From Desulfobulbaceae bacterium (GTDB lineage Bacteria > Desulfobacterota > Desulfobulbia > Desulfobulbales > Desulfobulbaceae), in NCBI GenBank assembly GCA_012744275.1, contig JAAYIE010000008.1:1-64000 (forward strand): DNA of 64,000 bases. Direction: 5' to 3'. The position numbers were made by a program, and so were the translations under genes. Below the pieces are notes generated by a model. That model was given only the letters and a program-made list of their open reading frames with translations. It did no database searches and was not told the DNA's origin. Within the stretch, counting starts at the first letter, position 1, and each line of letters begins with the position of its first letter. Below, one piece after another: positions 34,264 through 38,808 of the stretch.

Positions 34264-34773
34264 ATGCGACTCACACGAGCTGGTGAATATGCTGTCCGGT
34301 GCATGCTCTACCTTTGCGACAAAGGACAGGGTAATCTGGTCAGCCGACAAGAAATAGCCGAAAGCGCCGATATTCCGGCCCATTTCCTGGCAAAAATTGC
34401 CCAGCAGCTGGCAAAAGCCGGTTTTATCGAAATCCGCCAAGGTGCCCGCGGCGGTTTTATTTTGTCAAAAAAACCAAGTGATATTTCCCTGTTACAGGTG
34501 GTGGAAACCATGATTGGGGAAATTTATCTGAATGATTGTATCATCCGGCCAGAGAGTTGTGGCTCCCAGCCCGAATGTTCGGTGCACCGGGTGTGGCTCA
34601 ACGCCCGTGACCAACTGCGCTCAACCCTGGCGGCAGTAAGCTTGGCAGACCTGCAGCAAGGCACGATTTGCCAGACTAAACCCCTGATACCCGGCCAGTT
34701 GCCCCAAGCATCCACTAGCTGCGCAAGCGATGCGGCGGCAACACAAAAATTGCCGCACCCGTCCAAGGCCTGA
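34264..34773 (+). CDS. Rrf2 family transcriptional regulator with 3-Cys cluster
   Basis: MRLTRAGEYAVRCMLYL, ADIPAHFLAKIAQQLAKAGFIEIRQGARGGFIL, CIIRPESCGSQPECSVHRVW. Confidence 0.93.
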   Translation: MRLTRAGEYAVRCMLYLCDKGQGNLVSRQEIAESADIPAHFLAKIAQQLAKAGFIEIRQGARGGFILSKKPSDISLLQVVETMIGEIYLNDCIIRPESCGSQPECSVHRVWLNARDQLRSTLAAVSLADLQQGTICQTKPLIPGQLPQASTSCASDAAATQKLPHPSKA

Positions 34774-35036
34774 TGGAGCACTCCATGATAGAGCAACGCG
34801 CGCGACAACCAGGCCTGATCCGACGAATCATCCTGTTCTACGTCAACGGCTTCAGACAAATGACGATCGGACGAACTCTGTGGAAAATCATTTTCATTAA
34901 GTTGTTCATTATGTTCGCCATTCTGAAGGTTTTCTTCTTTCCCAATTTTTTGAAAACCCAGTTTGATACAGATCAAGAACGTGCCGAGCATGTGGTGGAT
35001 CAGCTGACCCTGCCGGCGCAAGGTATGACGCACTGA
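34773..35036 (+). CDS. DUF4492-like small membrane protein linked to cytochrome bd
   Basis: IRRIILFYVNGFRQMTIGRTLWKIIFIKLFIMFAILKVFFFPNFL; immediately upstream of cydA. Confidence 0.8.
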   Translation: MEHSMIEQRARQPGLIRRIILFYVNGFRQMTIGRTLWKIIFIKLFIMFAILKVFFFPNFLKTQFDTDQERAEHVVDQLTLPAQGMTH

Positions 35037-35054: not shown

Positions 35055-36590
35055 ATGCTGGAAATCATGGACCTGAGCATGGTGAACTGGGCACGGGCAC
35101 AATTTGCCCTGACCGCCATGTACCATTGGCTGTTTGTACCACTGACCTTGGGCATTACCTGGATTATCGCCTTTTTTCACACCATTTACGTGAAGACCGG
35201 CAACGAAGAATGGAAGCGGCTGACAAAATTCTGGATGAAACTCTTTGGCATCAACTTTGCTATTGGGGTGGCCACTGGTATCATCCTCGAATTCGAGTTT
35301 GGTACTAACTGGTCAAACTATTCCTGGATGGTTGGCGACATCTTCGGTGCTCCTTTGGCCATTGAAGGTATTTTTGCCTTTTTCCTGGAAGCCACTTTCT
35401 TTGCCGTCATGTTTTTCGGCTGGAACCGGGTTTCCAAGGGATTCCACCTCTTTTCCACCTGGATGGTAGCCATAGGCAGCAACATGTCCGCGGTATGGAT
35501 TCTGGTAGCCAATGCCTGGATGCAGTATCCGGTCGGTCAGGCCTTCAATCCGGAAACCGCCCGCTTCGAGATGCAGAGTTTTGCCGAAGTGGCCCTTTCT
35601 CCCTACGCCATCAACAAATTCACCCACGCCACCAGTTCGTCCATGCTGACGGCAGCCCTTTTCATCATTTCCATTTCATCCTGGTATCTGCTCAGGGGCC
35701 GACACCAGCTCATGGCCAAACGCTCGATTGTGGTGGCTGCGGTGCTTGGTGTTTTTGCCTCTATTTTTACCATAGTCAACGGTGATGAAAGCGCCTACGA
35801 GATTGCGCAGGTTCAACCGATGAAGCTGGCAGCCTTTGAGGGCCTCTATGAAGGTCAGATCAACGCCGGACTTGCCGCCTTTGGCATTGTCAATCGGGAC
35901 AAGCAGGTTTTTGACGATCAAAAACCCTTCCATTTCGAAGTTCACTTTCCCTACCTGCTCGGCCTGATGGCCAACCGCTCCTTTAACAGCTTTGTCCCCG
36001 GCATGAAGGACCTGGTATACGGCAACCCTGAATACAACATTATGGGCTCTGCCCAGAAAATGGTGCGTGGCAAGGAGGCCATCGCCAACCTTGACAGCTA
36101 CAGGCATGCAAAAAAAAGCGGGGATGAAGAGGCAGCCGCAACCTATCTCAGCGCCTTCAACGAAACCAAGGAATTTTTAGGCTACGGATACCTGAGGACT
36201 CCTGAGGAAGCTGTACCGCCAGTAGCCCTGTCTTTCTACGCCTTCCATGTGATGGTATCATTGGGTACGCTATTCCCGCTTATCTTTATCGCCTACCTGT
36301 ATTTCACCAAAAAAGGTACGCTTGAACGGAAAAAATGGCTGCTGGGTTTTGGTACTATCACGTATTTTCTCGGCCTCATCGCAGGCCAGGCAGGCTGGGT
36401 TGTGGCCGAAGTCGGTCGCCAGCCATGGACCATTCAGGGCCTGTTACCGGTAACGGTTGCCCGCACTAATCTCACGACTGCGACTGTGCAAACCACCTTC
36501 TTCATCTTTCTTTTTCTGTTTACCGCCCTTTTGATTGCGGAAATCAGCATCATGCTCAAGCAGATCAGTATAGGGCCGGAGGAAAACTGA
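35055..36590 (+). CDS. cydA: Cytochrome bd ubiquinol oxidase subunit I
   Basis: WARAQFALTAMYHWLFVPLTLGI, GWVVAEVGRQPWTIQGLLPV. Confidence 0.95.
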   Translation: MLEIMDLSMVNWARAQFALTAMYHWLFVPLTLGITWIIAFFHTIYVKTGNEEWKRLTKFWMKLFGINFAIGVATGIILEFEFGTNWSNYSWMVGDIFGAPLAIEGIFAFFLEATFFAVMFFGWNRVSKGFHLFSTWMVAIGSNMSAVWILVANAWMQYPVGQAFNPETARFEMQSFAEVALSPYAINKFTHATSSSMLTAALFIISISSWYLLRGRHQLMAKRSIVVAAVLGVFASIFTIVNGDESAYEIAQVQPMKLAAFEGLYEGQINAGLAAFGIVNRDKQVFDDQKPFHFEVHFPYLLGLMANRSFNSFVPGMKDLVYGNPEYNIMGSAQKMVRGKEAIANLDSYRHAKKSGDEEAAATYLSAFNETKEFLGYGYLRTPEEAVPPVALSFYAFHVMVSLGTLFPLIFIAYLYFTKKGTLERKKWLLGFGTITYFLGLIAGQAGWVVAEVGRQPWTIQGLLPVTVARTNLTTATVQTTFFIFLFLFTALLIAEISIMLKQISIGPEEN

Positions 36591-36591
36591 C

Positions 36592-37740
36592 ATGATCAAC
36601 CTTGAATACACAACCCTGCAGCATCTCTGGTGGCTGCTCTGTTCCGTTGTTGGTGCGCTTTTCCTGTTTATGAACTTTGTCCAGGGCGGCCAAACCCTAC
36701 TCTGGCAGGTGGCCAAAACAGAGGCAGAAAAAAACCTGGTCATCAATTCGCTGGGCCGCAAGTGGGAACTGACCTTCACCACATTGGTGCTCTTCGGTGG
36801 TGCTTTGTTTGCATCGTTTCCAAAATTTTACTCAACTTCCTTCGGTGGTGCCTACTGGGTGTGGATGCTCATCCTCTTTACCTTTATTCTGCAGGCGGTC
36901 AGCTACGAATTCCGCAAGAAACCCCGCAATATTTTTGGCAGCACCGTGTACGAACTCTTCCTGTTCATCAATGGTTCAGTGGGTATCCTGCTTATCGGTG
37001 CGGCTGTGGGTACCTTTTTTACCGGGTCGAACTTCACCCTGGATGCCAACAACTTTGTCACCTGGACTCACCCTTTCCGGGGTTTGGAAGCGGCCCTCAG
37101 CCTATCCATTTACAGTATCTTTAATGTTTCCCTGGGCGTTTTCCTGGTGCTGAATGCACGCACTTTAGGTGCCATGTATCTGGTCAACAACATTGCTCCA
37201 GGCACAGCGCCTGAAATGGAAAAAAGGCTGCGCAACGCCTGCGGCAATAACTGTACCTACTCCCTGCCCTTTCTGGTGATTGTGGTGCTGTTTCTTGTAC
37301 TGATGCCTGGTTATGGCATAGTTGACGAGCAGGGCACCATTGCCAAAGTCGGCTTCAAATATCTGAAGAACCTGTTTGCCAACCCCTGGCTGCTCCTTAT
37401 GCTGCTGGCCGGGCTGGCGTCGCTGCTGTACAGCGTATGGCACACAGCAGTGAAAGAACAGAACAAGGGCATCTGGCTGGGCGGATTGGGCACAGTGCTG
37501 GTTGGCCTCACCGTCCTCATGCTTCCGGCTTACAACAACACCTCTTTTTACCCGTCCAAGGTTGATCTGCAATCTAGCCTGACCATTTATAATGCCTCGT
37601 CCAGCTCCTACACTCTCACGGTGATGACCTATGTCGCCCTGGGTATTCCCGTTGTACTGGGTTACATAGCCTATGTCTGGTGGGCTATGGACAGGAGCAA
37701 AATGCGGATGGAAGACGTGAACGACCAATCTTCATATTAA
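36592..37740 (+). CDS. cydB: Cytochrome bd ubiquinol oxidase subunit II
   Basis: Follows cydA by 1 nt; multiple TM helices; CydB-like N-terminus QHLWWLLCSVVGALFLFMNFVQGGQTLL. Confidence 0.94.
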   Translation: MINLEYTTLQHLWWLLCSVVGALFLFMNFVQGGQTLLWQVAKTEAEKNLVINSLGRKWELTFTTLVLFGGALFASFPKFYSTSFGGAYWVWMLILFTFILQAVSYEFRKKPRNIFGSTVYELFLFINGSVGILLIGAAVGTFFTGSNFTLDANNFVTWTHPFRGLEAALSLSIYSIFNVSLGVFLVLNARTLGAMYLVNNIAPGTAPEMEKRLRNACGNNCTYSLPFLVIVVLFLVLMPGYGIVDEQGTIAKVGFKYLKNLFANPWLLLMLLAGLASLLYSVWHTAVKEQNKGIWLGGLGTVLVGLTVLMLPAYNNTSFYPSKVDLQSSLTIYNASSSSYTLTVMTYVALGIPVVLGYIAYVWWAMDRSKMRMEDVNDQSSY

Positions 37741-37815
37741 ACCCTACACTACCTGTTTTCCTTGGGTATATTGCACTCAAAGCCGAGGAAAAACTACGGA
37801 TATCAGGAGCAAACT

Positions 37816-37917
37816 ATGGGCATCATGAGTATCATCCTCTTGCTTGGCTGGACTGGAATTCTGGTTGTATCATATTATCTTGCGGTCTACCTTTTGAAAA
37901 AATTTGATTTTTACTGA
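37816..37917 (+). CDS. 33-aa single-TM protein, candidate small bd-oxidase subunit (CydX-like by position and topology)
   Basis: ATG after CAGGAGC; MGIMSIILLLGWTGILVVSYYLAVYLLKKFDFY; between cydB and a terminator; not in supplied ORF track. Confidence 0.7.
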   Translation: MGIMSIILLLGWTGILVVSYYLAVYLLKKFDFY

Positions 37918-37948: not shown

Positions 37949-37985
37949 GGGCAACACTGCATTTTCATACGGTGTTGCCCATTTT
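37949..37985 (+). terminator. Terminator of the cyd operon
   Basis: GGGCAACAC...GTGTTGCCC followed by ATTTTAT. Confidence 0.8.
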
Positions 37986-38039: not shown

Positions 38040-38375
38040 ATGTCGGCAGACAAGCAAAATCCTACCCAAAAGCCGGCCATGTACCGGAAAATTCGTGAAT
38101 CCTACCCAGCCATCATCGATCATCTCGAGGCTTTGGGCCAATCCTTAGCTGAAGCCGGGCCAGTTCCAAGGAAAGAAGGGCACCTTATTCAGCTCGCAGC
38201 TGCAGCCGCCATGCAGTCAGAAGGATCAGTGCACTCCCATGCCAGAAGGGCATTGGCGGCAGGAGCCACTATTCAGGAAATTGAACACAGCCTTTTGTTG
38301 CTTATTTCAGTAATCGGATTTCCCCGGGTTGCAGCGGCCCTGTCCTGGATCAGTGATGACAGTGTTCGTCCATAA
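38040..38375 (+). CDS. Carboxymuconolactone decarboxylase/AhpD-like family protein
   Basis: 112-aa; GPVPRKEGHLIQLAAAAAMQSEGSVHSHARRALAAGATIQEIEHSLLLLISVIGFPR. Confidence 0.85.
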   Translation: MSADKQNPTQKPAMYRKIRESYPAIIDHLEALGQSLAEAGPVPRKEGHLIQLAAAAAMQSEGSVHSHARRALAAGATIQEIEHSLLLLISVIGFPRVAAALSWISDDSVRP

Positions 38376-38447: not shown

Positions 38448-38475
38448 TTGACAGACTCGTTTGTCATTTTATAAT
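38448..38475 (+). promoter_or_regulatory. sigma70-type promoter upstream of the FmdB-like gene
   Basis: TTGACA (38448-38453), 16 bp, TATAAT (38470-38475). Confidence 0.75.
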
Positions 38476-38532: not shown

Positions 38533-38808
38533 ATGCCCATTTACGAGTATGAGTGTAATCAATGTGACAAAACCCTTGAAGTCAGTCAGTCCATTAAGGA
38601 TGCGCCGTTGAGCACCTGCCCTGACTGTGGCCAGCCGGTTCGTAAACTCATTTCCGCATCCTCCTTCCTCCTTAAGGGCGGTGGTTGGTATGCCGACGGC
38701 TATACCCATGCCAAGGACAATGCTAAAACTCCGGCCGATTCCAAGCCGGCACCTCCGCCCTGCCGAGGCGGCTCCGGCTCCTGCGCCCACTGCCCAGCTT
38801 CCTCATAA
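38533..38808 (+). CDS. FmdB-family zinc ribbon protein
   Basis: MPIYEYECNQCDKTLEVSQSIKDAPLSTCPDCGQPVRKLIS; Cys-rich C-terminus. Confidence 0.92.
   Translation: MPIYEYECNQCDKTLEVSQSIKDAPLSTCPDCGQPVRKLISASSFLLKGGGWYADGYTHAKDNAKTPADSKPAPPPCRGGSGSCAHCPASS

Follow-up and report, generated by a model that had tools for sequence, protein, structure and literature searches.

The cyd locus and its small downstream gene

The window, that is, the whole stretch of 64,000 nucleotides that was analysed, comes from a genome of 2.8 Mb in 159 contigs and carries a bd oxidase locus, the features of which are collected in Table 1. The Rrf2 gene overlaps the start of the DUF4492 gene by one base. The Q-loop of the CydA protein measures 151 aa, compared with 149 aa in E. 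coli when identical landmarks are used. Of 64 testable loci, 36 have an Rrf2 gene ahead of cydA, and all 36 of these regulators show the Cys-x6-Cys-x5-Cys pattern (both counts among the matches listed); the regulator could serve the oxidase operon as an Fe-S sensor that responds to O2 or NO.

Table 1. Positions of the genes and signals of the cyd locus in the window.
Feature	Position	Strand	Description
rrf2	34264..34773	+	Probable regulator of the operon; Rrf2 family, with the pattern Cys-x6-Cys-x5-Cys
cydW (DUF4492)	34773..35036	+	Small membrane protein, upstream of cydA; PF14899, E 1.5e-30
cydA	35055..36590	+	Subunit I of the bd oxidase, 511 aa with a long Q-loop; PF01654, E 5.3e-156
cydB	36592..37740	+	bd oxidase subunit II, 382 aa; PF02322, E 1.7e-67
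Shine-Dalgarno AGGAG	37805..37809	+	6 nt ahead of the ATG of the small ORF
cydY-type gene	37816..37917	+	33 aa, single-helix membrane protein; span includes the stop
Stem-loop	37948..37981 (about)	+	Stem of 12 pairs with a 10-nt loop; probably ends the operon as an intrinsic terminator

Behind cydB, and separated from it by a spacer of 75 nt, lies an ORF of 33 codons whose product is MGIMSIILLLGWTGILVVSYYLAVYLLKKFDFY. A second in-frame ATG, at 37825, is without a well-spaced Shine-Dalgarno sequence. The 33-mer has a single hydrophobic stretch, with a Kyte-Doolittle mean of 2.16 for the best 19 residues. An earlier note on this DNA had described a 33-aa ORF with an SD-like site, a 75-nt gap after cydB and one transmembrane helix, and the coordinates, the AGGAG motif and the hydropathy bear out this description. 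The terminator that it had placed at 37949–37985 corresponds to a strong hairpin (-20 kcal/mol, z = -5.3, none of 200 shuffles equally good) followed by a modest T-tract, ATTTTATAT; a terminator scan did not call this hairpin, because it permits loops of 8 bases at most.

Right after the terminator, positions 38040–38375 encode a small protein of the carboxymuconolactone-decarboxylase family (PF02627, E 2e-14). A perfect sigma-70 consensus (TTGACA, 16 nt, TATAAT) is also located at 38448–38475, upstream of a small zinc-ribbon gene that starts near 38534 and is FmdB-like by eye.

Conservation and purifying selection

Length and position are insufficient as proof of a gene, because an ATG-initiated ORF of at least 33 aa appeared in 18.5% of the dinucleotide shuffles of the interval between cydB and the terminator, and one of at least this length with equal hydrophobicity in 0.3%. 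A search with the 33-mer revealed homologs at E <= 1 in the genomes of 65 of 96 relatives, mostly at the cyd locus. The 80 closest named loci were fetched by CydA and then searched with a profile of the small protein, which was detected in 74 of them (among the matches listed). Five of the six profile-negative loci have a contig edge in or shortly after cydB, and the sixth, from Desulfospira joergensenii, holds a diverged copy, MGTVLLILYVVLIYASYKGSLIALEKMKLD. A homolog tied to the cyd genes, with its frame unbroken, is present in all 75 testable loci (among the matches listed), which belong to the Desulfobulbales, Desulfobacterales, Desulfuromonadales and SAR324, and the small ORF is therefore a real gene. 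Its carriers include the cultured species Desulfobulbus rhabdoformis and D. elongatus. An SD-like motif precedes 71 of the 75 homologs by rule and three more by eye, again among the matches listed.

The substitutions were compared between the window and its two nearest named relatives, L061 (pS 0.86, pN 0.17, Fisher p about 4e-8) and L062 (pS 0.63, pN 0.19, Fisher p about 6e-4); ratios from distant pairs were set aside because their synonymous sites are near saturation. Nucleotide identity with the two relatives is 0.66 and 0.73 in the ORF, against 0.47 and 0.35 in the preceding spacer and 0.42 and 0.43 in the following 100 nt. Among pairs more than 60% identical, the changes at the three codon positions number 1394:539:2348. 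The 33-codon ORF is a real, conserved protein-coding gene under purifying selection, and so both observations on which the earlier note had made its proposal depend, conservation downstream of cydB in relatives and a pS well above pN, were obtained. The shuffles that yield such a length by chance would suit a fortuitous or non-coding ORF, conserved as an RNA or 3' UTR element, but this explanation has a negligible probability and was rejected on the conservation and selection counts, since third-position changes dominate, pS exceeds pN, the Shine-Dalgarno motif is conserved and the frame is intact in 75 loci.

Residue pattern, rearranged operons and the probable partner subunit

Residues were counted in an alignment of 75 proteins, one from the window and the others from 74 loci. 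Trp occupies core position 9 in 60 proteins and Tyr in 15, the Trp at the helix start of the window protein being W12. Ser16 and Tyr17 are each found in 68 of the 75, Leu24 is invariant, and no conserved Pro was found in the alignment. Core position 26, at the C-terminal end, is Lys or Arg in 73 of the proteins; this conserved basic residue would place the C-terminus toward the cytoplasm and suggests an N-out/C-in orientation. In the cryo-EM structure of the E. coli oxidase the C-terminus of CydX is likewise on the cytoplasmic side (PMC6853902), the opposite orientation having been assumed earlier (PMC4325964). The change from Trp to Tyr is seen in L098, L103, L106, L109, L112, L115, L116, L120 and L127, among others, and many of the homologs with Tyr are labelled Desulfobacteraceae or Desulfobacula.

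The small gene directly follows cydB in 68 of the 75 loci and cydA in seven (among the matches listed). In the latter (L075, L076, L079–L082 and L088), cydB is located upstream of rrf2-DUF4492, while L077 shows copies of cydB at both positions and is plausibly an intermediate of the rearrangement. Since the small gene remains with cydA when cydB is elsewhere, these seven loci point circumstantially to CydA as the partner of the small protein; rearranged operons thus allow the large subunit that it serves to be argued from sequence. L076 also displays a natural CydA-CydY read-through, in one frame with one stop. AlphaFold predicted one helix for its CydY part, with a pLDDT of only about 50–57; contacts are not reported by the tool. 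The choice of CydA agrees with known systems, as CioY and CydX bind a CydA-type subunit. CydX touches helices 1, 5 and 6 of CydA in E. coli (PMC6853902). CioY is the name given to the product of the Campylobacter CydY gene by Froschauer, Svensson et al. in 2025; its translation was detected by Ribo-seq, it was recovered with CioA by reciprocal co-immunoprecipitation, and it was modelled in the place of CydX (PMC11955535).

By analogy with these two proteins, the window protein would be a subunit with one helix in the inner membrane, packed against CydA. It may bind CydA rather than CydB and may stabilise the haem-carrying helix bundle. We consider it highly probable that the small ORF represents cydY in an operon of the order rrf2-cydW(DUF4492)-cydA-cydB-cydY and that its product is such a CydA-packing subunit. 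The earlier proposal of a candidate small bd-oxidase subunit is thus supported by the strict linkage to cydAB and by purifying selection, with membership in the oxidase complex argued by analogy.

Conservation and linkage would fit equally well a protein that helps CydA to assemble or keeps it stable by a transient action, in haem or membrane insertion, and is not a stoichiometric subunit. We regard such a factor as improbable, given the reciprocal co-immunoprecipitation of CioY with CioA (PMC11955535) and the fact that the structure solved for E. coli contains both CydX and YnhF as subunits (PMC6853902). YnhF (CydH), a different protein that is confusingly called CydY as well, is likewise a one-helix subunit (PMC6853902), and the window protein might occupy its place instead of that of CydX and block the channel by which oxygen reaches haem b595. 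This placement is more improbable still, because the model of CioY puts it at the CydX place (PMC11955535), the gene for YnhF lies outside the cyd operon (PMC6853902), and the N-terminal Trp and operon position of the window protein recall CydX.

Comparison with CydW and known small subunits

The subunit packing against CydA that we favour would have a companion in the DUF4492 protein. A phylum sample of 297 genomes includes 14 in which DUF4492 exceeds its cut-off; 13 of these carry CydY at E < 1e-6, and the best CydY match in the other genomes of the sample is one partial at 4e-5. A plasmid search with DUF4492 gave matches to Bacteroidota only, and two Bacteroidota DUF4492-cydAB loci that were checked have no CydY behind cydB. 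The same holds for Porphyromonas gingivalis, where cydW is the first gene of cydWAB and is co-transcribed with cydAB (PMC4668044). From its size and position, PGN_1040 would be a DUF4492 protein. CydW of P. gingivalis is, like the DUF4492 protein of the window, a small membrane protein encoded upstream of cydA, and it is unrelated in sequence to CydY.

CydX of E. coli (PF08173) resembles the window protein in its one helix, its aromatic N-terminus, its gene at the 3' end of the operon and its long-Q-loop CydA. The spacing from Trp to the acidic residue is 19 in both (W6–E25 in CydX, W12–D31 in the window protein), which may be a coincidence because the acidic position is D or E in only 39 of the 75 homologs. 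However, Pfam and NCBIfam scans (PF08173 and TIGR02106) of the 33-mer and 27 homologs gave chance-level matches only, a comparison of the family profile with E. coli CydX revealed no similarity, and a search of the window's genome found no PF08173 match, with E. coli and Caulobacter controls positive. Membership in CydX was therefore rejected for lack of a family-profile match, in line with the earlier note, which had not recognised the sequence as CydX. For CydZ, the 33-mer gave no match to PF10617 (DUF2474), and the Q-loop of CydA is long where CydZ calls for a short one. The small-protein profile had no match among PDB chains at E <= 10.

The family appears near-constant in the long-Q-loop bd oxidases of sulfate-reducing and related bacteria, and it is missed by the models of both Pfam and NCBIfam. 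When such oxidases are expressed or purified, CydY and DUF4492/CydW should both be included.

CioY of C. jejuni and the window protein share one helix, a gene directly behind cydB/cioB and conserved Trp and Tyr residues; CioY has 34 aa and the window protein 33. A Pro is reported as conserved in the CioY alignment, in contrast to the family of the window. This difference, and the replacement of Trp by Tyr, would be consistent with a Desulfobacterota family of independent origin, separate from CydY/CioY of Campylobacterota, which together with CydW/DUF4492 would form four-subunit oxidases having two small subunits without sequence counterpart in solved bd structures. We hold this separate origin to be possible, though rather unlikely.

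The CydY protein named in 2014 has one helix and an N-terminal Trp, and its gene lies behind cydB in Epsilon- and Deltaproteobacteria. The screen of Allen et al. covered long-Q-loop cyd operons without CydX, and every such operon encodes an unnamed hydrophobic small protein upstream of cydAB (PMC4325964), the place that DUF4492 occupies in the window. The window protein shares with CydY the single helix, the position behind cydB, the clear ribosome-binding site, the Trp at the helix start, a CydA with a long Q-loop and the absence of CydX; it differs in that its relatives have Tyr for Trp in 15 of 75 and the gene after cydA in seven loci. Because place, helix, Trp, long Q-loop and absence of CydX all agree, we filed the window protein as CydY by the definition of the 2014 set, a match of described features and not of sequences. 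The kind of protein is already known, as CydY since 2014 and as CioY since 2025, names that the earlier note had missed.
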